A stretch of DNA of 64,000 bases from Euzebyales bacterium (GTDB lineage: Bacteria > Actinomycetota > Nitriliruptoria > Euzebyales > JAHELV01): contig DASUUK010000034.1 of assembly GCA_036374135.1 (NCBI GenBank), forward strand, positions 62,001-126,000, given 5' to 3'. This document shows positions 1 through 54,606 of this stretch, one piece after another. The notes under the pieces are model-generated. The model saw only the letters and a list, made by a program, of their open reading frames with translations. It had not been told where the DNA came from and did no database searches. Each line of letters begins with the position of its first letter. Positions within the stretch are counted from its first letter, which is position 1. Made by a program: the position numbers and the translations under genes.

Positions 1-51
1 GGGTTCGTCCGCCAGCAACGCGGCCAGCGGCGTGTCCGACGCGCCGTTCAT
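1..51 (-). CDS. allG: AllG-like (YlbE/DUF1116) oxamate carbamoyltransferase subunit, N-terminus only
   Basis: Only the first 17 codons lie in the window; the gene runs off the left edge. The ATG at 51 overlaps the stop codon of the preceding allF gene (ATGA), the same coupling used by the rest of this operon. The identity is inferred from position. In Escherichia coli the three oxamate carbamoyltransferase subunits AllF, AllG and AllH (formerly FdrA, YlbE, YlbF) are adjacent, and AllF and AllH are recognisable just upstream here. The visible residues alone do not identify the family. Confidence 0.5.
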   Translation of the reverse strand, partial: MNGASDTPLAALLADEP

Positions 52-1559
52 GCGGAGCCCTCCACAGCGGAGACGAGCCGCACGGCTTCGCGGGCGGCCT
101 CGGCGTTCGACAGGCACACGATCGCTCCGGCGTCCGTCAACGCCTTGGCCTGGCGGTCCAGCCCCTGCGGGTCGTCACCGGTCCCACAGAGCGACACGAC
201 GACGGCCAGGCGGTCGCCGCGGTCGTCGGCCGTCCGCCGTGCGGCGGCGAGGGCCGGCGCGAGCGCGCCGGCCGGGTCGGCGTCGGCGCCGTGCCCGAGC
301 ACGACATCGAGCAGCAGTGTGTGGCTGCCGGGGCGTTGCGCCGTGCGTTCCATCCGGGCGATGCGCAGACCGTGGTCGATCATGGGATGCGGACGGCCCC
401 GTGTCATGTCGTCCTCGCCGAGGTCGATCATCACGTGGCCGTCCGCGTCGTCGCCGTCGGGCAGCGCCCAGTCGGGCTCCAGCGGGATGTTCGACCGGAC
501 CGGTCCGAGCGCCTCGGCGGCGATCACCATGGCCTCGTCGCACAGCGTGCCGCCACTGAACAGGCCGCGCACATCACCGTGCGCGGGTGCGGGCGGGTCC
601 GCCGGATCCCAGCGCAGGTGCGCGTCGACCGCGTGGCCGGCGTACGCTGCGACCTCGTCGGCGACCGCGGTCAGGTCCCGCTCGCCCCGCCCGACGAAGC
701 CGAGCACGACATGCGTGGCGCAGGCCGCGGCCGCCTCGCGCACCCTGGCGGCCACCTGTGGGTCCGGCGGTTTGGACACGATGACGATGAGCTCGGTACG
801 GGGGTCGGCGTCCAGCGCCCTGAGCGCCGTGAGCGTGGAGGCACCGCCGATCTGCGCCGACAGGTCGCGTCCACCGACACCCAGCACGTGGCGGAGGCCG
901 ACGCCCGCCGCGTCGAGCAGGCAGCACACCTGTTGGGCGCCGGTGCCCGACGCGGCGACCATGCCGACCGGCCCCGGACGGACGACGTTGGCGAACCCGA
1001 GACCGACGCCACCGACGATCGCGGTGCCGCAGTCGGGTCCCATCACCAGCAGACCGCGTCGATCGCCTTCGGCCTTGAGGGCGATCTCCTGCGCGACGGG
1101 CACGTTGTCGCTGAACAGCATGACGTGCAGCCCGGCGCGCAGCGCATCCATCGCCTCGACGTACGCGTGCTCCCCCGGCACGGAGATCAGCGCGAGGTCC
1201 AGATCGGTGGACCGCGCGGCTCCACCGACGGTGCGCGGGGGCGGCGCGCTGAAGTCACCGCCCACGCTGGACGTCGATGTAGCCGCGAGCGCGGCATCGA
1301 TCTGCGCGCGCGCCGCGGCTACCGTCGCGTCGTCGGCGGCGCGCACCGCGACGACGAGATCGTTGGGCGTCGCGTCGTCGATGTGCTGGCCGAACCCGAG
1401 ATCGGCCAGGATCCCGAGGTTCAGCTCGGTTGCCATCGCGACGACCGCCTCGTCGACGCCATCGATCGCGGTGATGTCCCGCGAGACCTGCAGCAGCGTC
1501 ACCGAGTCGTGGTAGACGCCGTGCCGGAGCTCGAGGTGGGTCGTGCTCGCGGCGCTCAT
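48..1559 (-). CDS. allF: AllF/FdrA subunit of an oxamate-type carbamoyltransferase
   Basis: This 503-residue protein belongs to the FdrA family, whose fold resembles the CoA-binding and ligase domains of succinyl-CoA synthetase. Glycine-rich stretches such as GTGAQQVCCLLDAAGVG and GVGGRDLSAQIGG mark the two nucleotide-fold halves. In E. coli, AllFGH phosphorolyses oxalurate to oxamate and carbamoyl phosphate. The open frame continues 60 codons upstream, but that part is arginine-rich shadow sequence. The ATG at 1559 overlaps the allH stop (ATGA) and the family-like sequence begins right there. The substrate here may differ from oxalurate, because the operon also encodes a ring-opening amidohydrolase. 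Confidence 0.85.
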   Translation of the reverse strand: MSAASTTHLELRHGVYHDSVTLLQVSRDITAIDGVDEAVVAMATELNLGILADLGFGQHIDDATPNDLVVAVRAADDATVAAARAQIDAALAATSTSSVGGDFSAPPPRTVGGAARSTDLDLALISVPGEHAYVEAMDALRAGLHVMLFSDNVPVAQEIALKAEGDRRGLLVMGPDCGTAIVGGVGLGFANVVRPGPVGMVAASGTGAQQVCCLLDAAGVGLRHVLGVGGRDLSAQIGGASTLTALRALDADPRTELIVIVSKPPDPQVAARVREAAAACATHVVLGFVGRGERDLTAVADEVAAYAGHAVDAHLRWDPADPPAPAHGDVRGLFSGGTLCDEAMVIAAEALGPVRSNIPLEPDWALPDGDDADGHVMIDLGEDDMTRGRPHPMIDHGLRIARMERTAQRPGSHTLLLDVVLGHGADADPAGALAPALAAARRTADDRGDRLAVVVSLCGTGDDPQGLDRQAKALTDAGAIVCLSNAEAAREAVRLVSAVEGSA

Positions 1560-2416
1560 CCTTCGATCCTCTCCGATGTGAGCACGTCGACGGCGATGGT
1601 GATGCCTGCCAGCAGATCCTGCCCGGATGTGTGACCGATCCTCGTCAGCGCTGTCACGGCGCCGTCGAGCCGACCCTGCCCGGCCAGGGCCCGGAGCACC
1701 CGTCCGGCCGCGCCGACCACCGCGGCGTCGTCGGCGCACCGCAGCAGCGTCGATGACAGCGCGGTGGTGTGGTGCGCGTGACGGCGGCTGTGCCGTGCGA
1801 GCGCATCGGCCACAGGTGCCGTCGCGCCGGTGCCGAGCACGCGCAACGCCGCCAGTGCCCCGGCCACCACGTCGTCGCCGGCGGGCGTGGATCCAGCGCC
1901 GCGGCCGATCAGCTCGGCGACGGCCGGTCCGAGCGCCGACAGATCGTGGCGCATCGCGGCGGCCGCCAACCGCCGCACGCCGGCGCGCACCCCGAACGCG
2001 TCGTCGCCTGGGACGCCAGTTGAGGGGAGCGACGCACGGCGGCGGCGCAACTGGTCACGACCGACCGGCCCCACGCGGGGCGTCGGATCCCACCACCGGC
2101 GGACGACCAGCGTTCGGCCGCCGACGCGCAGCCCACTGTTGCCGACGTCGCCGCGCCGGCCGATGGGCACGTCTGCCAACCCACCGGCGCCGGCGCCGAC
2201 GGTCAACGAATTCGGCAACCGGACACCGCCATGGGCCTCGACGGCGATGACCGTGCCGTCGTCGCACCGCACGTACCAGGCCGGCCCGCTGGTGCCGACG
2301 AGCTGCACGTTCCTGGCGGGACCGACGAGAAGCGGTCGCAGCCAGCGGCTGGCAGCCGCAGCGTCCGCCCCGGCCGTCGGGTCGGGTGGTCGGCCGAGGG
2401 TGGTCACCTCGGTCAT
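1556..2416 (-). CDS. allH: AllH/YlbF (DUF2877) subunit of an oxamate-type carbamoyltransferase
   Basis: The 286-residue product matches the DUF2877 family, length about that of E. coli YlbF (AllH). The diagnostic C-terminal region carries GRGAGSTPAGDDVVAGALA and, near the end, GHTSGQDLLAGITIA, both typical of the family. AllH is the third subunit of the transcarbamylase that makes carbamoyl phosphate. The ATG at 2416 overlaps the carbamate kinase stop, and its own stop overlaps the allF start. The subunits are therefore probably made in fixed proportion from one message. The family assignment is firm; the exact substrate is not known from sequence. Confidence 0.82.
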   Translation of the reverse strand: MTEVTTLGRPPDPTAGADAAAASRWLRPLLVGPARNVQLVGTSGPAWYVRCDDGTVIAVEAHGGVRLPNSLTVGAGAGGLADVPIGRRGDVGNSGLRVGGRTLVVRRWWDPTPRVGPVGRDQLRRRRASLPSTGVPGDDAFGVRAGVRRLAAAAMRHDLSALGPAVAELIGRGAGSTPAGDDVVAGALAALRVLGTGATAPVADALARHSRRHAHHTTALSSTLLRCADDAAVVGAAGRVLRALAGQGRLDGAVTALTRIGHTSGQDLLAGITIAVDVLTSERIEG

Positions 2417-3399
2417 GACCCACCGTCGGGCACGATCAGCGTGCCCGCATCACCGCGGACGACACCGCCGACATCGTCGAGCGGTCCGATGGCGGCGGGC
2501 ATGTGCGCGCGCTCCACGAAGGACAGCACGGCAGCGACCTTGGGACCCATCGAGCCGGGCGCGAACTGTCCGTCCTCGGCGTACGCTCGCAGCTCGCCGG
2601 CGGTCACCTTCGCCAGCCACCGCTCCCCCGGCGTGCCGAAGTCGATCGCGACGCCGTCCACGTCGGTGAGGATGACGAAGCCGGTCGCGTGCAGCTGTCG
2701 TGCGAGCAGCGCGCCCGCGAGGTCCTTGTCGACCACGGCCTCCACCCCGACGAGCAGGCCGTCGTCGGTCCGCACCATCGGGATGCCGCCACCGCCGTTG
2801 GCCACGACGACGGCGCCCGCGTCCAGGAGGAGGTTGATCGTCACCGACTCCAGTAGGCGCACCGGTCGGGGCGACGGTACGACCCGCCGCCAGCCCCGGG
2901 CACCGAGATCGATGAAGTGCTGCCCTTCCTCACGTTGGCGGCGCTCGACCTCGGCCCGATCGGTGATGTGCGGGCCGATCGGCTTGGTCGGATCCGACCA
3001 TGCCGGATCGTCGGCGGACACCTCGATCCTCGAGATCACCGGGACGACGGTCGACAGGTCCCCGTGCGCCTCCAGTGCATGCTCGAGCGCGGTGATCATC
3101 TGATAGCCGATCGTGGCCTGGGTCTGCGCGACGCACCAGTCCAAAGGCATCGGCGGCACCACGTCCTTGGCGATCTCGTTCTTGCGCAGCAGGTTGCCGA
3201 CCTGAGGGCCGTTGCCGTGCGTGATCACGATCTCGCGGCCATCGACGATCAGTTCAGCCAGCAGCGTCATCGCTCTGCGGATGTTGCGGGTCTGCTCCTC
3301 GGCCGTCCCGCCCGTGCCGGCGGGCGCGATCGCGTTCCCGCCCAGCGCGACCACGGTGCGCCTGCGGTCCGACGATGCGGCGGACCGGCTGTGGGTCAC
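2413..3399 (-). CDS. allK: Carbamate kinase
   Basis: This 328-residue amino acid kinase catalyses carbamoyl phosphate + ADP to carbamate + ATP. Visible family motifs are ALGGNAI near residue 20, THGNGPQVGNLL at 60-71, and VVANGGGGIPM in the C-terminal half. Length is slightly above the usual 310 because of a short N-terminal extension. Its start overlaps the permease stop by 4 bases and its stop overlaps allH. Next to AllFGH it completes the E. coli-style pair in which phosphorolytic carbamoyl transfer is followed by ATP formation. An arginine-deiminase role is unlikely because arcA and arcB are absent here. Confidence 0.92.
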   Translation of the reverse strand: MTHSRSAASSDRRRTVVALGGNAIAPAGTGGTAEEQTRNIRRAMTLLAELIVDGREIVITHGNGPQVGNLLRKNEIAKDVVPPMPLDWCVAQTQATIGYQMITALEHALEAHGDLSTVVPVISRIEVSADDPAWSDPTKPIGPHITDRAEVERRQREEGQHFIDLGARGWRRVVPSPRPVRLLESVTINLLLDAGAVVVANGGGGIPMVRTDDGLLVGVEAVVDKDLAGALLARQLHATGFVILTDVDGVAIDFGTPGERWLAKVTAGELRAYAEDGQFAPGSMGPKVAAVLSFVERAHMPAAIGPLDDVGGVVRGDAGTLIVPDGGS

Positions 3400-4874
3400 G
3401 CGGGCGTCCCGTCGTCCGTCATCGGATCACGGTCGGCCACGACGCCGCGCTCCGCGTCGGTCCCCGGGATCAGGTTGTCGAGCAACAGCCCGAGGATCGC
3501 GCCGACCGCGATCCCACTGCCGAAGATGCTGCGCGCGAGGTTCGTCGTCCACTCGGCCCCGAGGAACGTCCAGTCATCGGGCAGCTGGTTCATGAAGTCC
3601 GGTACGACGAGCCCCATGAACAGGATGAACCCGGCGATCAGCAGGTTGCGCTGTGACGTCATGTCGGCACGCATCAGGTTCGTCAGTCCGACCGCGGCGA
3701 TCAGCCCGAACAGCGCGAGGTAGACGCCGCCGACCACCGGTGTCGGGATGGTCGCGATGATCGCGCCGAACTTCGTGACGAACCCGAGGAGGATCAGCGC
3801 CCCGGCACCCAGCAGCACCACGTAGCGGCTGGCGACGCGGGTCAACCCGATCAGGCCGATGTTCTCCGTGTACGACGTGGACGCGAACCCGCCGAGCAGA
3901 CCCGTGACGAAGCAACCCAGCCCCTCGCTGCCGATGCCGCGGTTGATCTGGCCACGGGTCGGCTCACCCAGCCCGGAGACACGCGCCACCGCGTGGTAGT
4001 CGCCGAACGACTCGATCATCGACGCCAGGTAGGCCGCGAGGACGGCGATGGCGAAGCCCAGATCGAACGACGGCGCACCCCACGGGAACAGCAGACTCTG
4101 CGCACCGACGACGTTGCGCACCCAAGGTGCGTCCGAGAAGGCCTGTCCGATGCGGTTGAAGCTCACGAACGCCCGGTTGCCCTCGGTGATCAGGCCGGCC
4201 TCCGACAGGATCAACGCCACGATGTACGTGCACAACACCGCGAGCAGTATCGAGAACACCGACACCAACTGCGACCGCCGTGACACGACGAGGGCGAACA
4301 CGAAGATGAAGCTGACGGTGAGCAGCGCGATCCACCAGTTGCCGGCGAGCACGACCTCCCCGTCATCACCGGTGATCGTGTTGATCTGCAGCGTCGCGGC
4401 GTTGAACAGCGACAGCCCGATCAGCGCGATCACGGGGCCGATCACGATCGGTGTGATGTAGCGGCGGATCAGCCCGAACACCCCGCTGAACCCGATGACG
4501 GTCTCGACGACCGCGCCGATCAGGATCGCGCCGCCGATGAACGCCATCGCGTCGACGCCCTCGCGGGCGCCGATGATCGCGAAGAAGGGCCCGAGGAACG
4601 CGAACGACACGCCCTGCACGATCGGCAGCCGTGAGCCGATCGTCACCTGCAGGATCGTTGCGATGCCCGACGCGATGAACACCGAGCTGATGAGGATGGC
4701 GATCTGGGTGGTGTCCATGCCCATCGCGGGCCCCAGCAGCAGCGGCACGGCGATCGTGGCACCGAACATGGTCAGCACGTGCTGCAGACCGAGCCCGAGC
4801 GCCTTGGGAAACGGCGTCGGGACGTCGTCGACCCCGTAGTTCAGATCCAGCTGTCCGGCTGGCGTCGTTGCCAT
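3396..4874 (-). CDS. NCS2 family uracil/xanthine permease
   Basis: This polytopic 492-residue membrane protein is of the nucleobase:cation symporter-2 family (UraA/XanP type). It begins with a soluble leader and then LGLGLQHVLTMFGATIAVPL, the hallmark first transmembrane region. QINRGIGSEGLGCFVTGLLG carries the Q/N-rich NCS2 substrate signature in the second half. The open frame extends far upstream, but the ATG at 4874 has a strong Shine-Dalgarno (GAGGAGG) about 9 bases before it. Its stop overlaps the carbamate kinase start. It most likely imports the heterocycle that the operon degrades. Choice among uracil, xanthine, barbiturate or cyanurate cannot be made by eye. Confidence 0.9.
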   Translation of the reverse strand: MATTPAGQLDLNYGVDDVPTPFPKALGLGLQHVLTMFGATIAVPLLLGPAMGMDTTQIAILISSVFIASGIATILQVTIGSRLPIVQGVSFAFLGPFFAIIGAREGVDAMAFIGGAILIGAVVETVIGFSGVFGLIRRYITPIVIGPVIALIGLSLFNAATLQINTITGDDGEVVLAGNWWIALLTVSFIFVFALVVSRRSQLVSVFSILLAVLCTYIVALILSEAGLITEGNRAFVSFNRIGQAFSDAPWVRNVVGAQSLLFPWGAPSFDLGFAIAVLAAYLASMIESFGDYHAVARVSGLGEPTRGQINRGIGSEGLGCFVTGLLGGFASTSYTENIGLIGLTRVASRYVVLLGAGALILLGFVTKFGAIIATIPTPVVGGVYLALFGLIAAVGLTNLMRADMTSQRNLLIAGFILFMGLVVPDFMNQLPDDWTFLGAEWTTNLARSIFGSGIAVGAILGLLLDNLIPGTDAERGVVADRDPMTDDGTPA

Positions 4875-4897
4875 GGCTTTCCTCCTCCTCGAGGCGT

Positions 4898-6292
4898 TCA
4901 GTGTGCGTGAGGGTCTTGGGCCGTCGTGGGGTTCGGGTCTCCCACCGGGCTCGTCTCCCCAGCGGCGGGGATCGACGTCGTGACCCGCCGGGACGCGGCG
5001 ACGACGTGTCCGGCGCGCAGCACGTGGCGCGGCCGCTCGTGTCGGCGGAGCACCTCGTGGGCGTCGTTGCCGTCGAGCACCACGAGGTCGGCGGACCCGC
5101 CGACCTCCGGGACGTGGCCGTCCAGACGCAGGACGCGGGCCGGATGCGACGTGATCATGTCGAGCAGGCGCTCCATGTCGCGCGGGGCGGTCATGTCCAG
5201 CGCGTGGGCGGCGAGCAGCGCGACCTCGAGCAGGTCGTGCCGGCCGAACGGGTAGTAGGCGTCGGCGACGTCGTCCTGTCCGAGCGCGACCGGCAGGCCC
5301 GCGTCGAGCATTGACGTGACGGGCAGCGCGAGCGGGGCAGTGTGCGGGTTGGTCACGAAGCCCATGCCCGCGCGCACGGCGAGGCGCAGCATGCGCTCGA
5401 GGCGCGGCCGAGGCCAGATGCCCAGGGCCCGCGCGTGGCATGCCGTGACGCGGCCGACCAGACCCCGGTCGAGCGCCGCCTCGGCCAGCATCGCAGTCGT
5501 TCGCAGCCCCGGATCGCCGGCATCGTCCGTCAGCATCGCGACGTCCCGGTCATGGCGGACGGCGATGTCGAGCATCGCGTCGATGTGTGCGCGGGCCTCG
5601 GCGTCGGTGTCCTCGATCCACGGGATGCCGCCGACCAGATCGGCGCCGAGCCGGACGGCCTCCTCGACCACCTCGGCCGCGCCGTCGTCACGTACGACAC
5701 CGTCCTGCGGGAAGGCCACGACCTGGATGTCGATCACCCCGTGCAGCTCGTCGCGCAGCGCGAGCAGTGGACGGATGCCACGCAGCCCTGCCCTGGTGTC
5801 GGTGTCAGCGAAGGCGCGGACGTGGGTGACGCCGCACCGCAGGCCCTCGTGCAGCACGCCGCGCGCGCACGCCGCGATCGTGGACTCGTCGTAGTGGTCC
5901 TTGACCGCCGACGCGAGCTCGATGGCACTGCCCGCGGCGCCCATGCCACCGCCCGCGTAGGCCGCGCGCGCCGCCGGCGCGAGGCGCCAGGTGTGCACCT
6001 TGTCCAGGTGCAGGTGGGCGTCGACGAACGACGGCACGACCAGGTCACCGGCGGCGTCGATCACGTCCCGACCGTCAAGCGTCTCCGAGGCGCTGATCGC
6101 GGTGATGCGCCCGTCAGTGATCCCGATGTCGCGCACGTCGCACCGCAGCGGCTCGCCGGCGCCGCGGCGCAGCCGGGCGTCGCGGATGACCAGGTCGTGG
6201 CCGGTCACGGCGACGCCCCAACCTGCCGGGGCGACGTGACACTCGCCCCGTTCGCAGGCAGCAGCGACGGTGATCCGGTCGCCTGTCGCCAT
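4898..6292 (-). CDS. CodA-like amidohydrolase (cytosine deaminase family, atypical metal site)
   Basis: The 464-residue protein aligns with E. coli cytosine deaminase through DAHLHLDK (His93, His95), DIQVVAFPQDGV, RLGADLVGGIPW, TACHAR (His286) and GQDDVADAYYPFG (Asp340). The segment matching CodA VHCDEID reads MLTDDAG instead. The third metal-binding His (CodA H214) is Leu254 and the catalytic Glu217 is Asp257. A straightforward cytosine deaminase call is therefore unsafe. It could be another amidohydrolase acting on a ring or amide intermediate. The start at 6292 lies 13 bases after the upstream stop; a GTG about 25 codons in is an alternative. About 20 bases separate it from the permease. 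Confidence 0.75.
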   Translation of the reverse strand: MATGDRITVAAACERGECHVAPAGWGVAVTGHDLVIRDARLRRGAGEPLRCDVRDIGITDGRITAISASETLDGRDVIDAAGDLVVPSFVDAHLHLDKVHTWRLAPAARAAYAGGGMGAAGSAIELASAVKDHYDESTIAACARGVLHEGLRCGVTHVRAFADTDTRAGLRGIRPLLALRDELHGVIDIQVVAFPQDGVVRDDGAAEVVEEAVRLGADLVGGIPWIEDTDAEARAHIDAMLDIAVRHDRDVAMLTDDAGDPGLRTTAMLAEAALDRGLVGRVTACHARALGIWPRPRLERMLRLAVRAGMGFVTNPHTAPLALPVTSMLDAGLPVALGQDDVADAYYPFGRHDLLEVALLAAHALDMTAPRDMERLLDMITSHPARVLRLDGHVPEVGGSADLVVLDGNDAHEVLRRHERPRHVLRAGHVVAASRRVTTSIPAAGETSPVGDPNPTTAQDPHAH

Positions 6293-6305
6293 CCCATGCG
6301 AGCGG

Positions 6306-7400
6306 TCAGTCGACGCGCACGATCGCCGCCACCGGTCCGCCGCCGGGTGGGCCTTGGTGCTGGGCGCCGACAGAGACGAATACGGCGGGATCGCCGACCG
6401 CGGCCGCGGTCACGCCACCGACGGCGCCCTTGGCGTGTCGGTGCCAGTGCACGTCCGAGTCGTCGAGCATGATCTGGCGCCGACCGCGCAGCTGTGCGTC
6501 GGGGTCGGCCTCGCACTTGAGGAAGACATTGATCAGACGGTCGCCGAGATCCGATGGGTGGGGACGCTCCGGAAGGTCCATCCCGGCGGAGCGGATCGCG
6601 TCGTAGATGCCGTCGAAGTCCAGCGCGTCGTCCATCACGCCGTGGCCGATGCGCAGATCGCCGCCGGCACCCGGGGCATTGCCGACCAGCACGATCTGGG
6701 CGCGATCCAGCTCGACGCCGGACGAGCACGACGCGACCGACGAGTACAGGTCCAGGTCATGGCCGATGGCGTCCGCCCCGGGCATCTCGATCTCACCGAG
6801 GCCGACCGCGATGCCCAGCCCTGTCGTGCCGTTGGACATGTCCATCGACTGGTGGATGTCCTCGCTGAACACCGTCTCGCCGCGCGACTTGGCCTCGTTG
6901 ATGGTCTCCATCGTCAGCAGCGGCGTCTTCGTCTGGACGTAGTGCACCTCGGCCGGATCGCTGATGCCGGCGATCTCCATCGCCTTGCGCACGCCGTCGG
7001 CGACCTTGGAGACCATCGCCGGCCGCCCGATGTCCTCGGGCAGGATGACGTCGCTCATCGCGATGCCGACGGCGAGCCGCTCCTGGTCGGAGGGCCCCGT
7101 CTGGTCGTTGCGCGCGAACACCGTCGCGTGCGGCGTGATCACACCGTCACAGCCGCCCGACCAGACCATCGGGATCTGCTCGATCTCCTCCGTCGAGCGG
7201 GTTCCGTGCTCGGACAGGACGCTCCGGAACGACCGGTCCGCCAGGATCCTGGTGAAGTCGTTGACACCGCCGTTGCCCTCGGTCTTGCCGATGACCGCGA
7301 TCACCTCGTCGGCGGCGAAGACCTCGTCCGCGATCAGCTGCGCCATCCCGGAGGCGTCTTGGACGTTGTTGAGCACGACCTTGCGCGCGATCACTGCCAT
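6306..7400 (-). CDS. Ring-opening amidohydrolase (barbiturase/cyanuric acid hydrolase family)
   Basis: At 364 residues this is full length for the AtzD/TrzD/Bar family, which hydrolyses barbiturate to ureidomalonate or cyanurate to carboxybiuret. The family has three pseudo-repeats, each giving a Lys-Ser pair. Here I see K39/S81 ([15 protein letters not shown]), K158/S226-227 (QTKTP, CSSGVEL) and K295/S343 ([17 protein letters not shown]). The ATG at 7400 has an AGGAGGG ribosome site 12 bases upstream. It is the first gene of the allantoin-like carbamoyl operon. Barbiturase is favoured by the NCS2 permease and CodA-like neighbour, but specificity within the family is not decided by sequence reading. 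Confidence 0.88.
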
Positions 7401-7705
7401 CGGCGAACAGCCCTCCTGTGCGAGACGGATGACACGGCGGAAGGTAACCGATCGCGGGCGGCTCCGACAGGCGTCGTCGCACGGATGTGCGCCACACCGC
7501 CGGCCGGGCGGGAGTCGGCGCTCATCGCTCGGCGCCGCCACAGCCGAGCGACTGGCTGTCGGGCCCGCCGCGATCTGCACGAGGCACGCGAGCGCCGTGC
7601 GTTCGCCGGAAGACGGCTCGCCGTCCAAGGGCGCCGCGCGGTCGAGGGCACCGATCGTCGCGGAGGCCAATCGTGACGGCCGAGGCCGTCAACGTTCAGG
7701 CGCGG
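7401..7705. other. Intergenic spacer upstream of the ring-opening amidohydrolase
   Basis: This 305-base stretch lies between the DddP-like gene end and the amidohydrolase start, both on the minus strand. Apart from the AGGAGGG ribosome site near 7407-7413 I see no gene. It presumably holds the operon promoter and perhaps a terminator for the DddP-like gene, but I could not identify either with confidence. Confidence 0.4.
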
Positions 7706-9043
7706 TCACCACAGGTCGAGCGGGAAGTGCGTGAGCAACTCCGGCCCGCCCTCGGTCACGAGCACCTGGTTCTCGAGCTTCACGCCCTCGCCGCCCGATC
7801 GGGGACCGACGTAGGCCTCGACGGTGAACACCATGCCGGGTTCGACCACGCCGTCGTAGCCCCATGCGTCCCAATCGCTGGGGAAGTAGATCTCGGGATG
7901 CTCGTCGCATTGCCCGACGCCGTGGAACAGCACGCTGTAGTGCCGGTAGTCCTCGGCGGGAGGGCTCCACGCCCCGTGGGTCAGCTCGCGGAACGACCGC
8001 CCCGGCGTGAGCAGCTCGATGTTGCGGTGGACCTGTTCGAGTGCCAGCGCGTGGACGTCGCGCTGCGCGCCGGAAGGTGGGCCGTCACCGCAGCGCAGGG
8101 TGCGCGAGATGTCGACCATCATTCCGTAGGCCCCGACCAGGTCCGTGTCGTAGGCGACGAGATCGCCGTCCTGGATGATCCGGCTGCTGGCCTCCTGCAT
8201 CCACGGGTTCGTGCGCGGACCCGACGACAGGATTTGCGTCTCGATCCACTCTCCCGCTCGCGCGATGTTGCCGGCGTGCAGCAGCGACCAGACCTCGCGC
8301 TCGGTCATGCCCGGACGCAGCGCGGCGCGCATGTCGGCCATGACCGACTCGCAGGCGTGGACGGCACAGCGCATGGCCCGGATCTCGTCGCCGCTCTTGA
8401 TCCTCCGTGCGCGTTCCATCACCTCCTGGCCGTTGGCGATGACGACACCGGCGTCGAGCAGCATCCGATGGGCGGTGAGGTGGCACTGGTCGATGGCGAT
8501 CCGCGTTCGCGCCCCCGGTCGATGCCCCGCCACGTCGAGGAGCTCGTCGACCCAGCGACGGGCCTGCTCGGCGTAGCGGGAGCCGGCCTGGAAGTACGTC
8601 GACGAGATGGCGGGCCGGACCTCGTCGATCAACGGGTTGTGGCCCGCGAAGAACTCGCAGTTCGCGAACTCCCACAGGATCGTGCGGCCGTCGGCACCGA
8701 TCCACGCGTAGCGCGCGCCGTTGTGCATCACCCACACCTGCATGTTGGTGGTGTCGGTCGCGTAGCGGATGTTCATCGGGTCCATGACCAGGATCCCGAC
8801 GAGATCCGACAGGTGGAGCTGCTCGCGTATCCGTTCGAACCGGTACCGGCGCATCCGGGGAAGGTCAGGCAGATCGAGCCCCGCCGCGACCCACTCCGCG
8901 GTGAGAGCCGGTCCGGGACCCAGCGTGAGGTGGTGCAGCGGGCCGCCAGCCGCCTCGAAGGCGTCGGCCGCACGCTGCACGCTGGCGCGGATCCTGTCAC
9001 CCACCCCGTGGTCCTTCGTCCGCCGCCGGGATGCCGCAGGCAT
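7706..9043 (-). CDS. dddP: DddP-type DMSP lyase (M24 metallopeptidase fold)
   Basis: The 445-residue protein has the creatinase/M24 fold with features of DddP, which cleaves dimethylsulfoniopropionate to dimethyl sulfide and acrylate. As I recall them, DddP metal ligands are D295, D297, D307, H371, E406 and E421, with Y366 and D377 in catalysis. Here the equivalents are D299, D301, D311, H374, E409, E423, Y369 and D380, at nearly the same spacing. Conserved surroundings include YATDTTNMQVW, GEWIETQILSSGPRTNPW and AYDTDLVGAYG. It stands alone upstream of the carbamoyl operon. A related hydrolase with another substrate remains possible. The start at 9043 is the first ATG; an internal one is possible. 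Confidence 0.75.
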   Translation of the reverse strand: MPAASRRRTKDHGVGDRIRASVQRAADAFEAAGGPLHHLTLGPGPALTAEWVAAGLDLPDLPRMRRYRFERIREQLHLSDLVGILVMDPMNIRYATDTTNMQVWVMHNGARYAWIGADGRTILWEFANCEFFAGHNPLIDEVRPAISSTYFQAGSRYAEQARRWVDELLDVAGHRPGARTRIAIDQCHLTAHRMLLDAGVVIANGQEVMERARRIKSGDEIRAMRCAVHACESVMADMRAALRPGMTEREVWSLLHAGNIARAGEWIETQILSSGPRTNPWMQEASSRIIQDGDLVAYDTDLVGAYGMMVDISRTLRCGDGPPSGAQRDVHALALEQVHRNIELLTPGRSFRELTHGAWSPPAEDYRHYSVLFHGVGQCDEHPEIYFPSDWDAWGYDGVVEPGMVFTVEAYVGPRSGGEGVKLENQVLVTEGGPELLTHFPLDLW

Positions 9044-9129
9044 TGTGGACCGTGCGCGACCGCCTCGCGAGGGTCAGTCCATGAGCTCGTCGTGGCGGAC
9101 CCGTGACACCTCGGCTGCGTCGTGCACTC

Positions 9130-9420
9130 CAGCGTCCGACCGGACGGCTGCCGCGTGCGCTCCTGCGACCGATCACTCCGTCGTCCTCGGTGTGGGCGAA
9201 GCGCGGCGTGCCGTGGTCACGATCCGGCACCGATGCGCCACACGTGTGCGCGGAGTAGCGGCCGCGGAAGATCTGCAGATCACCGGGACGCGGGTCGAGC
9301 GTGACCACCGGGCCGACCGTCCCCGCAGCACGTCGGCGACCTCGTCGAACGGCTCGTGCTCCGGCGTCCGGAACGGCTGGGCATCGGCCTGACGGTCCCA
9401 CGCCACGTCGTAGGCGACGA
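9130..9420 (-). pseudogene. Decayed fragment of a 2OG-Fe(II)-oxygenase-like protein
   Basis: Reading the minus strand from 9420, one frame gives AWDRQADAQPF and PFDEVADVLRG. After about 9325 the sequence continues in another frame as PVVTLDPRPGDLQIFRGRYS and RFAHTEDDGVIG. The motif PGDLQIFRGRYS followed by an acidic VIG-type end resembles the C-terminal half of a family of 2OG-Fe(II)-dioxygenase-like proteins. The frame change plus the missing N-terminal half, which would run into the LysR remnant, indicate a dead gene. The boundaries are approximate. Confidence 0.55.
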
Positions 9421-9431
9421 CGCGGTGGCCG

Positions 9432-9942
9432 GGTGTTCGACGTCGTCGTGTCGTCCGGATCGTTGCACGCGGCCGCGCGGAGGCTGCACCTCGGCCAGCC
9501 GGCGGTCAGCCACACGACCGCCCAGCTGGAACGCGTGCTGGGAACCGCGCTGTTCGACCGCACGCCGGGCACGCACCTGACGGCCGCCGGCATCGAACTG
9601 CGCGATCACGTGCGCCCCACGCTGGCCGCGCTGGATGCTGGCGTCCACGCGGTCCGTCGCACCGCCCGCGGAGCAGGCGTGGTTCACCACGGACTCGACC
9701 GCCCCTGCACGACGCCGGTCGAACGACCACGCCGTGGTGGTGCGGGCGGCGCTCGACGGCCCGGGCGTGGCGCCCGGCTGGCAGTACCTCGTCGCTCGTC
9801 GATGTCGGTCGGCTCGTGACCGTCGGGGGGTCTGGCGATCCACACACAACGGCCGTTCGTCCTGCTGCACCGCCGGGGACCCGTCTCGTCGTCGACGACC
9901 GCCCTACGCGACTGGCTGCTCGCGCGGACGACGAGCCCGTGA
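9432..9942 (+). pseudogene. Decayed LysR-type transcriptional regulator
   Basis: A clear LysR helix-turn-helix is visible from about 9432 (SSGSLHAAARRLHLGQPAVS, then LFDRTPGTHLTAAG). The expected 300-residue protein is not there. Most of the effector domain is missing. A short C-terminal piece (AALDGPGVAPGWQYLV) continues in a second frame near 9740-9800. The tail (LVDVGRLVTV, TALRDWLLAR) follows in a third frame and stops at 9942. At least two frameshifts and one internal deletion make this a pseudogene. It probably once regulated the flanking minus-strand genes or the oxygenase-like remnant. Confidence 0.7.
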
Positions 9943-51392: not shown

Positions 51393-52508
51393 TCAGCTGC
51401 CGGCCGACCGGGCCTGCTCGAGCCAGCCGTCGACGGCGTCGCGGTTCTGCTCGATCCACTCAGCGGCATCCGCCGCGATGTCGTCCTCGGTGTAGCTGTC
51501 GCCCGCCTCGTTCATCTCGGCGTTCTGCGCGCTGATGTCGCTCAGCGGGATCTGCACGGCCTCGAGCAGCGCCGCCGCGTCGGGGTTGTTCTCGAGGAAG
51601 TCGTTGTTGACGACAGCGCGGATGTCGTTGACGACCCACCCGAGCTCGCAGGACTCGCCGCCGGTGGCGCAGCCCGCCAACCCGTCCGCGGTCGTCGATT
51701 CGTCGTCACCTGGCAGCGGCGGCGACTCCAGCCACACCACGTCCTCTCCCGGAACCAGCACGTCGATCGTCCAGTTGGGCGTCCAGGTGTAGAACAGGAC
51801 CGGCTCGCCGGCGTCGACCTTCTGTGCGACCTCGTCGATCTGCACGGAGTAGTCGCCGACGATCTGCTCGACGTTCGCACCCCAGTCCAGGGTGTTGATC
51901 TGCTCGGTGATCGCGGCGTTGCAGCCCCAGCCGTCGTTGCAGCCGATCAGGTCGGCCTGGCCGTTGCCGTCGCCATCGAACGCGGCGGCCGTATCGGCGT
52001 CGGTCAGGTCCGACATGCTGGTCAGGCCCATCTCGTCGGCAGTCTTCTTGTCGACCAGGTACCCCTGCAGCGCGCCGCCGTCGACCTGAGTCCCGACGGG
52101 CGTGATCGGCTCCTCGTTCTGTTCGCCGGAGAACAGCTCCCGCTCCAGGTAGATGTCGTGCAGCGGGAACCAGCCGTTGGCCCACAGGTCGAAGTCACCC
52201 TCGGCGAGCGCCGGGTAGAACACGTTGGGGTCCAGCGTGGCCTCGGATGGGTCCGACACGTCGTAGCCCAGTTCGGTCAGCAGGTCACGGTAGATGTAGG
52301 CCTGCATGAAGCCGGTGTCCCAGGTGGCGCGGGCCATCGTGATCTGCCCGTCGCCACCGCCGCCGTCGTCGCCGGCCGCCGGACCACCATCACCGGCGAC
52401 GTCCGCTGCCGGGCCGCAGGCCGCCGTCAGCAGTCCGAGAACCACGGCGAGCGTCACGGATCGCCAGGCCAATGATCGCTGTCGTAGCATGGGGGGTACA
52501 GTTGCCAT
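51393..52508 (-). CDS. Glycine betaine-type substrate-binding lipoprotein (ProX/OpuAC)
   Basis: The 371-residue lipoprotein has a leader ending in LTAAC (Cys31) and a linker rich in Gly and Asp. An OpuAC-type domain follows, beginning at ARATWDTGFMQAYIYRDLL. Family phrases are DLWANGWFPLHDIYLE and FYTWTPNWTIDVLVPGEDV. A calcium-loop-like DGDGNGQADLIGCNDGWGCN is seen near residue 185. The ATG at 52508 has GGGAGG 11 bases upstream. It lies 21 bases after a BCCT carrier gene, but no permease or ATPase partner is nearby, so its partners are elsewhere or it is an orphan. Confidence 0.88.
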   Translation of the reverse strand: MATVPPMLRQRSLAWRSVTLAVVLGLLTAACGPAADVAGDGGPAAGDDGGGGDGQITMARATWDTGFMQAYIYRDLLTELGYDVSDPSEATLDPNVFYPALAEGDFDLWANGWFPLHDIYLERELFSGEQNEEPITPVGTQVDGGALQGYLVDKKTADEMGLTSMSDLTDADTAAAFDGDGNGQADLIGCNDGWGCNAAITEQINTLDWGANVEQIVGDYSVQIDEVAQKVDAGEPVLFYTWTPNWTIDVLVPGEDVVWLESPPLPGDDESTTADGLAGCATGGESCELGWVVNDIRAVVNNDFLENNPDAAALLEAVQIPLSDISAQNAEMNEAGDSYTEDDIAADAAEWIEQNRDAVDGWLEQARSAGS

Positions 52509-52529
52509 TGCGGGTGTTCCTCCCCCGGC

Positions 52530-54347
52530 TCAGCTCTCGCTGGATGCAGTGTCGGCGGTCTCGGAGGTGTCGGAGTCGTCGGACTTCTCACCGAAGACGT
52601 CCTCGTCGCTGATGAGGGACGGGTGGCGCACCCTGAACAGCGCCGCGTCGTAGTACTCCTCGAGCAGGTCGAGTTCCTCGTCGAACGCCGTGTACATGCT
52701 CCACATCATGATGATGAGGATCACCGCGAAGGGCAGGCCGCTGGCGATCGCCATGGCCTGCAACGCGTTCAGGCCGCCGCCGAGCAGCAGGACGGCCGCA
52801 ATGGCGCCCTCCATCACAGCCCAGAAGACCCGTTGCGGCTTGGGCGAGTCGAGCTTGCCGCCCGACGTCAGATGGTCGACGACCAGCGATCCCGAGTCCG
52901 ACGAGGTCACGAAGAACGACACGACCAGCAGCACGGCGACGATCGACGTGAACTCGGTCAGCGGAAAGGCCTCGAGCATGACGAACATCGCGGTCGCGAC
53001 GTTCTCGTTGACCGCGGTCGCGAGGTCGACGACGCCGTTGAGCTGCAGGTTGATCGCGGCCCCACCGAACACGGCCATCCAGACGAACGACAGCAGCGAC
53101 GGCGCGACCATGACCCCGAGGATCAGCTCGCGGACAGTGCGGCCTTTCGAGATCCGGGCGATGAACATGCCCACGAACGGCGACCAGGAGATCCACCAGC
53201 CCCAGTAGAACACCGTCCAGCTGCCCTGCCAGCCGCCGCCCTCACCAAAGGCCTCGGTCCAGAACGCCAGCTCGGGGAGGACCTGGACGTAGAAACCGGT
53301 GCTCTGGATGAACACCGACAGGAGGAACAGCGTGGGACCGACCGCGACGATGAACACGAGGAACGCCGCCGCGAGGTAGATGTTGAGCTGGCTGAGCCGC
53401 TTGACGCCCGCGTCGAGACCCGCGACGACCGAGAGCGTGGCCATTGCGGTGATCGCCGCGATGAGCAGCACCTGGAAGCCGGTGTTGGCCGGCCACCCGA
53501 ACAAGAAGGTCAGTCCGGCCGACGCCTGCTGCACACCGAACCCGAGTGAGGTCGCCAGCCCGAAGAGCGTCGCCAGCACGGTCAGCACGTCGATGACGTT
53601 GCCCCAGGTGCCGTAGATCCGCTTGCCGAGCAGCGGATAGAACACCGACCGGAACGTCAGTGGCAGACCGCGGTTGAACGCGAAGAACGCCAGCGCCAGG
53701 CTGACCAGCGCGTAGATCCCCCACGGGTGGATTCCCCAGTGGTAGTAGGTCGTTGCCAGGGCGGCCTGCGCGGCGGCGTCGGTTCCCGCCTCGACACCGA
53801 ACAGCGGCGCGGGCGACGTCAGGTGGAAGATCGGCTCGGCGACGCTCCAGAACATCAGCCCGATGCCCATGCCGGCCGACAGCAGCATCGCGTACCACGC
53901 ACCGGTCGAGAACTCGGGGCGCGCCTGCGGCCCTCCGAGGCGGATCTTGCCGAACCGGCTGAAGGCGAAGAACAGCCCGGCCAGCACGTAGAGATTGGCC
54001 GCCAGGATGTAGAACCAGCCGAAGAACGCGTTGATGCCATCGCGCAGTCCGACGAAGAACGCCTCCATCGGCTCGCGGAACACCAGGGTGACGACGAGCA
54101 ACGTGACGACCAGCCCGGCCGACCAGAAGGTGACCTGAGGATGCAGGTCGAAGCCCCAGCGGACGATGTTGCTGTCGCCGGGCTCCCGGTCGGCGACCTC
54201 CGGGTAGAAGTCGATCTCGGGCGCAACCTGCAGGCCCTCGAAGCGCGGACGTTCGATGATGGCCTGGCGCCGTGCCTCGCGCTCGGCGGCCTCCTCTCGG
54301 CGGTGCTCCTCCTCGGCCTTCGTCAGGTTCCGCTCTTCACCGCTCAT
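52530..54347 (-). CDS. BCCT-family betaine/carnitine/choline transporter
   Basis: The 605-residue, about 12-segment carrier imports quaternary ammonium solutes with sodium or protons. Family signatures are LLSAGMGIGLMFWSVAEPI, YYHWGIHPWGIYALV and WGWWISWSPFVGMFIARISK. Long charged cytoplasmic tails at both ends resemble osmosensing BCCT members. The ATG at 54347 has GGGGAG 9 bases upstream and is preferred over an ATG 30 bases earlier. Relatives also carry DMSP, which is relevant because a DddP-type lyase is encoded at 7706-9043. Confidence 0.93.
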   Translation of the reverse strand: MSGEERNLTKAEEEHRREEAAEREARRQAIIERPRFEGLQVAPEIDFYPEVADREPGDSNIVRWGFDLHPQVTFWSAGLVVTLLVVTLVFREPMEAFFVGLRDGINAFFGWFYILAANLYVLAGLFFAFSRFGKIRLGGPQARPEFSTGAWYAMLLSAGMGIGLMFWSVAEPIFHLTSPAPLFGVEAGTDAAAQAALATTYYHWGIHPWGIYALVSLALAFFAFNRGLPLTFRSVFYPLLGKRIYGTWGNVIDVLTVLATLFGLATSLGFGVQQASAGLTFLFGWPANTGFQVLLIAAITAMATLSVVAGLDAGVKRLSQLNIYLAAAFLVFIVAVGPTLFLLSVFIQSTGFYVQVLPELAFWTEAFGEGGGWQGSWTVFYWGWWISWSPFVGMFIARISKGRTVRELILGVMVAPSLLSFVWMAVFGGAAINLQLNGVVDLATAVNENVATAMFVMLEAFPLTEFTSIVAVLLVVSFFVTSSDSGSLVVDHLTSGGKLDSPKPQRVFWAVMEGAIAAVLLLGGGLNALQAMAIASGLPFAVILIIMMWSMYTAFDEELDLLEEYYDAALFRVRHPSLISDEDVFGEKSDDSDTSETADTASSES

Positions 54348-54606
54348 CGGCGCCACTCCCCGGTACGTGCCAGCCACCCAGCGACGCCGATTGCGCCAAC
54401 GCGACCGTCACCGTCGGCGCCGTTCCCCAACGCCGATGCAGGGCCGGGTGCAAGCGCTCCCAGTCATCCGCATCCGGATCGTAACACCGCCGCGCCTCGA
54501 TACGGCAAGGGATACCTCACTACATCTGCTGACATCTCCGCCCAGCGCGCACGCGCGTGTTGCGCATGGCGCACTGATCAGCGCTAAACGGACCTCGCTG
54601 ACTGAC

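Follow-up and report, generated by a model that had tools for sequence, protein, structure and literature searches.

Among bacterial genes for DMSP lyases, dddP is frequently described as the most abundant. A DddP-like gene in an actinobacterial genome raises the question of whether its product, here P0002, cleaves DMSP or acts on another substrate. The gene lies in a 64-kb stretch of DNA that we analysed as a whole (the window), and a sequence-only reading of this stretch had proposed that it encodes a complete DddP-type DMSP lyase and would extend DMSP cleavage to this lineage. In 2018, sequenced actinobacteria had no known functional ddd gene, yet several isolates made DMS from DMSP (PMC6309047). 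The novelty of the lineage is weakened by marine surveys, in which DddP homologues from Actinobacteria and Acidimicrobiia have already been reported (PMC7494906, PMC13280387). In the literature searched we found no report of a functionally tested actinobacterial DddP, although absence there is not proof.

An intact gene of the DddP superfamily

The window belongs to contig C34 of a 4.0-Mb, 96% complete genome, and the assignment of that genome to the Nitriliruptorales bears out the actinobacterial host. The open reading frame of P0002 has an ATG start, a stop codon and no internal stops, and we assign it to the minus strand, which had previously been left unstated (Table 1). Its score against PF00557 passes the gathering score of 23, making the protein a member of the M24 domain superfamily. 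A protein search of the window's genome found P0002 in a single copy, and the DddP family model has a second, weaker match elsewhere in that genome.

The solved DddP enzymes are the closest relatives of P0002 with known structure, by sequence as well as by predicted fold, so the description as a complete DddP-type M24 protein holds. RlDddP from Ruegeria lacuscaerulensis (PDB 4RZY, 4RZZ, 4S00 and 4S01) was matched by phmmer at E = 5e-104 and by BLASTP at 44% identity over 412 residues (330 bits, against 22.7 bits for the best of 20 shuffles of P0002). For RdDddP from Roseobacter denitrificans (PDB 4B28), the phmmer E-value was about 1e-101 and the identity 41%, and P0002 shares its metal-site residues and its fold. 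Among solved proteins, prolidases were far weaker matches than the DddPs (E about 1e-16 against about 1e-104). An AlphaFold2 monomer model built with 37 homologues (pLDDT 86.4, pTM 0.87) predicts the two-domain M24 fold of DddP, its best match being RlDddP (4rzy, TM 0.86, rmsd 2.0), followed by prolidases at a TM of about 0.66. Creatinase and the ectoine hydrolase DoeA, M24 enzymes from osmolyte metabolism which use the fold on non-peptide substrates as we propose for P0002, are more distant in the fold comparison (17-20% identity, TM 0.61-0.67).

Table 1. Positions in the window of the DddP-like gene, of its active-site codons and of other genes discussed in the text
Feature	Positions	Strand	Basis or remark
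DddP-like M24-fold protein P0002	7706-9043	minus	445 aa, intact ORF; PF00557 115.9 bits; NCBIfam NF043017 (DddP) 434.9 bits
Codons of metal ligands D299 and D301 (RlDddP D295, D297)	8141-8149	minus	alignment
Codon of metal ligand D311 (RlDddP D307)	8111-8113	minus	alignment
Codon of Y369 (RlDddP Y366, proposed catalytic)	7937-7939	minus	alignment
H374 (metal ligand) to D380 (RlDddP D377, proposed base), including Q378	7904-7924	minus	alignment, clade comparison
Codon of metal ligand E409 (RlDddP E406)	7817-7819	minus	alignment
Codon of metal ligand E424 (RlDddP E421)	7772-7774	minus	alignment
Codon of Q270, in place of R266	8234-8236	minus	clade comparison
AtzD-family ring-opening amidohydrolase	6306-7400	minus	NF052395 456.5 bits, cut-off 360; 305 bp downstream of the DddP-like gene
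LysR fragment	9433-9684	plus	PF00126; mainly the HTH region, 85 of some 306 aa; oriented divergently to the DddP-like gene
OpuAC/ProX glycine-betaine-type binding protein	51396-52529	minus	PF04069; 35% to ProX of locus L017
BCCT betaine/carnitine/choline-family carrier	52533-54407	minus	PF02028, 622 bits

Active-site residues shared across the superfamily

Aligned with RlDddP, P0002 keeps all six metal ligands (D295, D297, D307, H371, E406 and E421, found as D299, D301, D311, H374, E409 and E424) and both proposed catalytic residues (Y366 and D377, found as Y369 and D380), with the roles of these residues taken from the work on DddP (PMC4108388). All eight matches to DddP put forward in the sequence-only reading are thus present, as are the motifs YATDTTNMQVW and GEWIET, the residue following the latter being Q, not R. 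A specificity of these features for DddP was not confirmed, as most of the superfamily has them. Across 94 aligned proteins, the eight residues are kept both in the clade of the solved DddPs and in that of P0002, and shorter relatives (short forms) carry the metal ligands in 37/37, the Tyr in 35/37 and the Asp in 26/37. Being common to most DddP-like paralogues, the eight residues are not diagnostic of function; they place P0002 in the superfamily and do not demonstrate its activity. Because most paralogues look alike at these positions, with up to nine such proteins per genome, we do not take the match at the active site to prove that P0002 cleaves DMSP.

One alphaproteobacterial genome of 2.7 Mb (G331) encodes nine full-length DddP-like members and another of the same class, of 8.0 Mb (G241), encodes five, so that it is unlikely that all are DMSP lyases. 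The expansion of DddP-like M24 proteins was seen in the proteobacterial genomes G331, G241 and G324, with some copies in tandem (L078 9893-12415; L144), and hints at a substrate-diversified family that extends beyond DMSP.

Other positions separate P0002 from peptidases of the M24 fold. After the SGxR motif it has W281, a Trp in common with RlDddP, where all five outgroup M24 proteins have His, and Phe and His of the outgroup at two active-site positions are Tyr and Asp in P0002. The loss of the M24B His makes ordinary Xaa-Pro peptidase activity unlikely.

The surroundings of the active site also differ from those of the DddPs. Of 91 columns with at least 93% conservation across the DddP clade, P0002 retains 80, and three replacements are fixed in its own clade. 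R266 of RlDddP becomes Q270, where every compared protein of the DddP clade and of the short forms has R or K; L375 becomes Q378, between the metal ligand H371 and the base D377 in RlDddP numbering; and C305 becomes M309, two residues ahead of the metal ligand D307 in the same numbering. Two more differences from RlDddP, A103 to Y112 and G282 to S286, are common to most short forms. These short forms, which come from Proteobacteria and are represented by plasmid-borne proteins of Pseudomonas sp. MPC6 and Rhizobium phaseoli with 42-48% identity to P0002, also share W164 and, in most cases, the eight active-site residues. Unlike P0002, most lack the N-terminal extension, and they have R or K at position 266 and L or M at 375.

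A clade beside that of the solved DddPs

The best-scoring family model for P0002 is NF043017, the DddP equivalog, which aligns over nearly its full length (model positions 28-439 of 443). At 434.9 bits against a cut-off of 600, P0002 falls short by 165 bits; for comparison, a roseobacter-type protein scores 903 bits and a Pelagibius protein 628. Among 198 genomes sampled from the window's phylum, none passed this cut-off.

In a maximum-likelihood tree of 72 rows (LG+C20), whose DddPs do not include the ratified, divergent ones from fungi and from O. doudoroffii (DddP1 and DddP2), P0002 belongs to a clade of 20 proteins (support 100/100), nearly all from Acidimicrobiia or Nitriliruptoria. Another clade, of 27 proteins (100/99), contains the DddPs of known structure. 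A constraint that united the P0002 clade with the five roseobacter-type DddPs cost 49.5 log-likelihood units and was rejected (p-AU = 0.0016). The phylogeny thus puts P0002 outside the solved-DddP clade, against the sequence-only reading when that clade is taken narrowly; in a broader sense the kinship stands, since the two clades are close relatives, joined at 100/97 together with two proteobacterial rows (L125 and L137). On this sequence phylogeny, the clade of P0002 is the sister group, or nearly so, of the DddP DMSP lyases. Members of the actinobacterial clade were also seen on two MAG contigs labelled as Proteobacteria (L005 10001-11302; L045 2338-3603), reflecting either lateral transfer or wrong binning.

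Gene neighbours of relatives point to small methylated osmolytes

We counted the neighbours of the DddP-like gene at 50 loci of the P0002 clade, many of them cut short, and these raw counts, which carry no background rate, are read as associations: an FAD-GcvT protein of the dimethylglycine/sarcosine-dehydrogenase type at 20/50, an MttB-family methyltransferase at 16/50, and a GbcA-like Rieske oxygenase and a ProX-like binding protein at 12/50 each. The FAD-GcvT gene is frequently adjacent, upstream and on the same strand. In a genome of the same order as that of the window (G008), the orthologue of P0002 lies 2.3 kb from the MttB and FAD-GcvT (DMGDH) genes, and an MttB-DMGDH pair is also present in the window's genome, on a contig other than that of the window. 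Short-form plasmid relatives adjoin genes of betaine catabolism and related functions, namely BCCT, Rieske, sarcosine oxidase, proline-betaine transport and 4-hydroxyproline epimerase genes. Taken together, the neighbours of relatives point to small methylated osmolytes as substrates, DMSP among these. The frequent association of sister-branch members with betaine- and methylamine-degradation genes makes a small osmolyte the probable substrate.

Genes annotated as DddP can have a similar setting. In Loktanella, one such gene has a Rieske oxygenase two genes away. On Loktanella and Paracoccus plasmids, the neighbours of DddP-annotated genes are Rieske oxygenase or hydantoinase genes and include no known DMSP genes (L114 7881-15037; L113 6691-16841).

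Proposed function of P0002 and the case for DMSP

We favour the view, which we hold to be somewhat better than even, that P0002 is a di-metal lyase or hydrolase of the DddP superfamily acting on a small onium or N-methylated osmolyte. We infer its chemistry, substrate and physiology as follows. RdDddP is a homodimer with bound iron (PMC4108388), and P0002 is expected to be a homodimer by homology. Its two-metal centre would bind the carboxylate of the substrate, and D380, aided by Y369, would take a proton, leading to the breakage of a carbon-heteroatom bond. The substrate would most likely be a small zwitterionic osmolyte of the betaine or onium type; DMSP is one candidate, and N-methylated betaines or their demethylation products appear at least as likely. 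The weak side of this explanation is that the telling neighbours are those of relatives, and in the window the gene adjoins unrelated catabolic genes.

A more specific proposal, which we advance tentatively and rate at a little under even, is that the Acidimicrobiia/Nitriliruptoria clade represents an enzyme family of its own, built on the DddP scaffold and cleaving or hydrolysing a nitrogen onium compound, an N-methylated osmolyte or a demethylation product of one, and that many dddP genes counted in surveys of soil, sediment and ocean are not DMSP lyases. Published criteria for dddP include an E-value of at most 1e-30 (PMC8520302) and at least 40% identity with an E-value of at most 1e-55 (PMC12904073). 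P0002 would pass such filters despite its separate clade, its changed active-site surroundings and the betaine-type context of its relatives. Whether members of its clade produce DMS decides between two outcomes: actinobacteria take part in the DMS cycle through DddP, or dddP counts are inflated.

The main alternative is that P0002 is a genuine DMSP lyase. DMSP, taken up through BCCT or ProX-type carriers, would then undergo beta-elimination to dimethyl sulfide and acrylate, D380 serving as the base, and the acrylate would be disposed of via AcuI/YhdH. The whole proposed catalytic set is conserved, the predicted fold is nearly identical to that of RlDddP, and the N-terminal extension of DddP is partly retained, the match starting at model position 28. 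Distance in sequence need not count against it, as ratified DddPs are as far apart as 32% identity: FgDddP from Fusarium shares 32% identity with RdDddP and is reported to be active (PMC4108388), and DMSP lyase activity may therefore reach beyond the tree clade that we used as a boundary. Several marine actinobacteria moreover cleave DMSP through genes that are not known (PMC6309047). The BCCT carrier noted in the sequence-only reading as a possible supplier of DMSP is present, about 43.5 kb from the DddP-like gene; it adjoins the OpuAC/ProX gene, both lying about 42-45 kb away, and the latter's product may possibly serve osmolyte uptake. An AcuI/YhdH-family gene scores above its cut-off elsewhere in the window's genome and in three congeners, but this family also occurs in E. 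coli and many other bacteria without DMSP metabolism (PMC3338564), and no ddd or dmd genes were seen near the P0002 gene. Against a DMSP lyase stand the position outside the solved-DddP clade with the rejected union with roseobacter DddPs, the shortfall from the curated cut-off, and the clade-specific replacements near an active site whose conserved residues are not diagnostic. The identification of P0002 as a DMSP lyase is accordingly not supported, and we regard it as plausible but less likely than not, while still the most serious competitor of an osmolyte lyase or hydrolase with another substrate.

The adjacent genes of a probable catabolic operon

Downstream of the DddP-like gene, the ring-opening amidohydrolase is followed by genes for a cytosine-deaminase-like amidohydrolase, an NCS2 permease, carbamate kinase, AllH and AllF, and, past the window edge, AllG, a three-subunit molybdenum hydroxylase, CoxG and an amidase. 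These genes likely form a catabolic operon (window 48-7400, minus; L002 4584-12117, minus). Its composition suggests a route like that for allantoin/oxamate, in which ring opening is followed by carbamoyl transfer and by the use of carbamoyl phosphate to form ATP, with a pyrimidine, barbiturate or cyanurate as candidate substrates. The product of the ring-opening gene passes the NCBIfam cut-off for cyanuric acid amidohydrolase.

Could P0002 belong to this nitrogen-heterocycle operon and hydrolyse one of its intermediates in the manner of creatinase? Its gene lies on the same strand and next upstream of the ring-opening gene, both in the window and in G002, the only other genome with a comparably tight spacing (about 150 bp). 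The distributions of the two genes differ, however: the ring-opening gene occurs in 23/66 genomes of the class and a close P0002 orthologue in 5/61 searched, and G008 has the orthologue and no ring-opening gene. In G001, 3.9 kb and a PucR gene oriented divergently to the ring-opening gene intervene between the two, and in G003 they do not share a contig. G005, where PucR is again divergent to the ring-opening gene, has no close orthologue; the remaining loci of the P0002 clade lack the operon. On distribution and on the arrangement in G001, G003 and G005, we rejected a role of P0002 in a downstream nucleobase or cyanurate operon. We consider such a role decidedly improbable, and the ring-opening amidohydrolase is probably a neighbour of the P0002 gene rather than part of the same system. 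Least probable is plain M24 peptidase activity of the Xaa-Pro or prolidase type, a reading that draws on the M24 Pfam domain and on plasmid relatives annotated as 'Xaa-Pro peptidase family protein', and that runs against the lower sequence and fold scores of prolidases, the DddP-like Trp in place of the M24B His, and the Tyr and Asp in place of the outgroup Phe and His.

A scan of positions 7300-9600 found no promoters or terminators, a result that is uninformative in high-GC DNA. Beside the orthologue in the congener G003, a 3-hydroxyisobutyrate-dehydrogenase-type gene was considered for an acrylate/3-hydroxypropionate route and rejected, as other congeners have no close copy. The LysR gene upstream of the DddP-like gene was likewise rejected as a dedicated regulator, since an HTH fragment alone is left in the window; by tblastn it is 72% identical to the G003 LysR over residues 23-107 only. 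In G003 itself, a full-length LysR gene lies beside the orthologue (L160 7376-8296). Loci of the PucR-family regulator were seen in G001 and G005 (L190 6334-7977, minus; L192 9371-10963), and the regulator is absent in the window and in G002.
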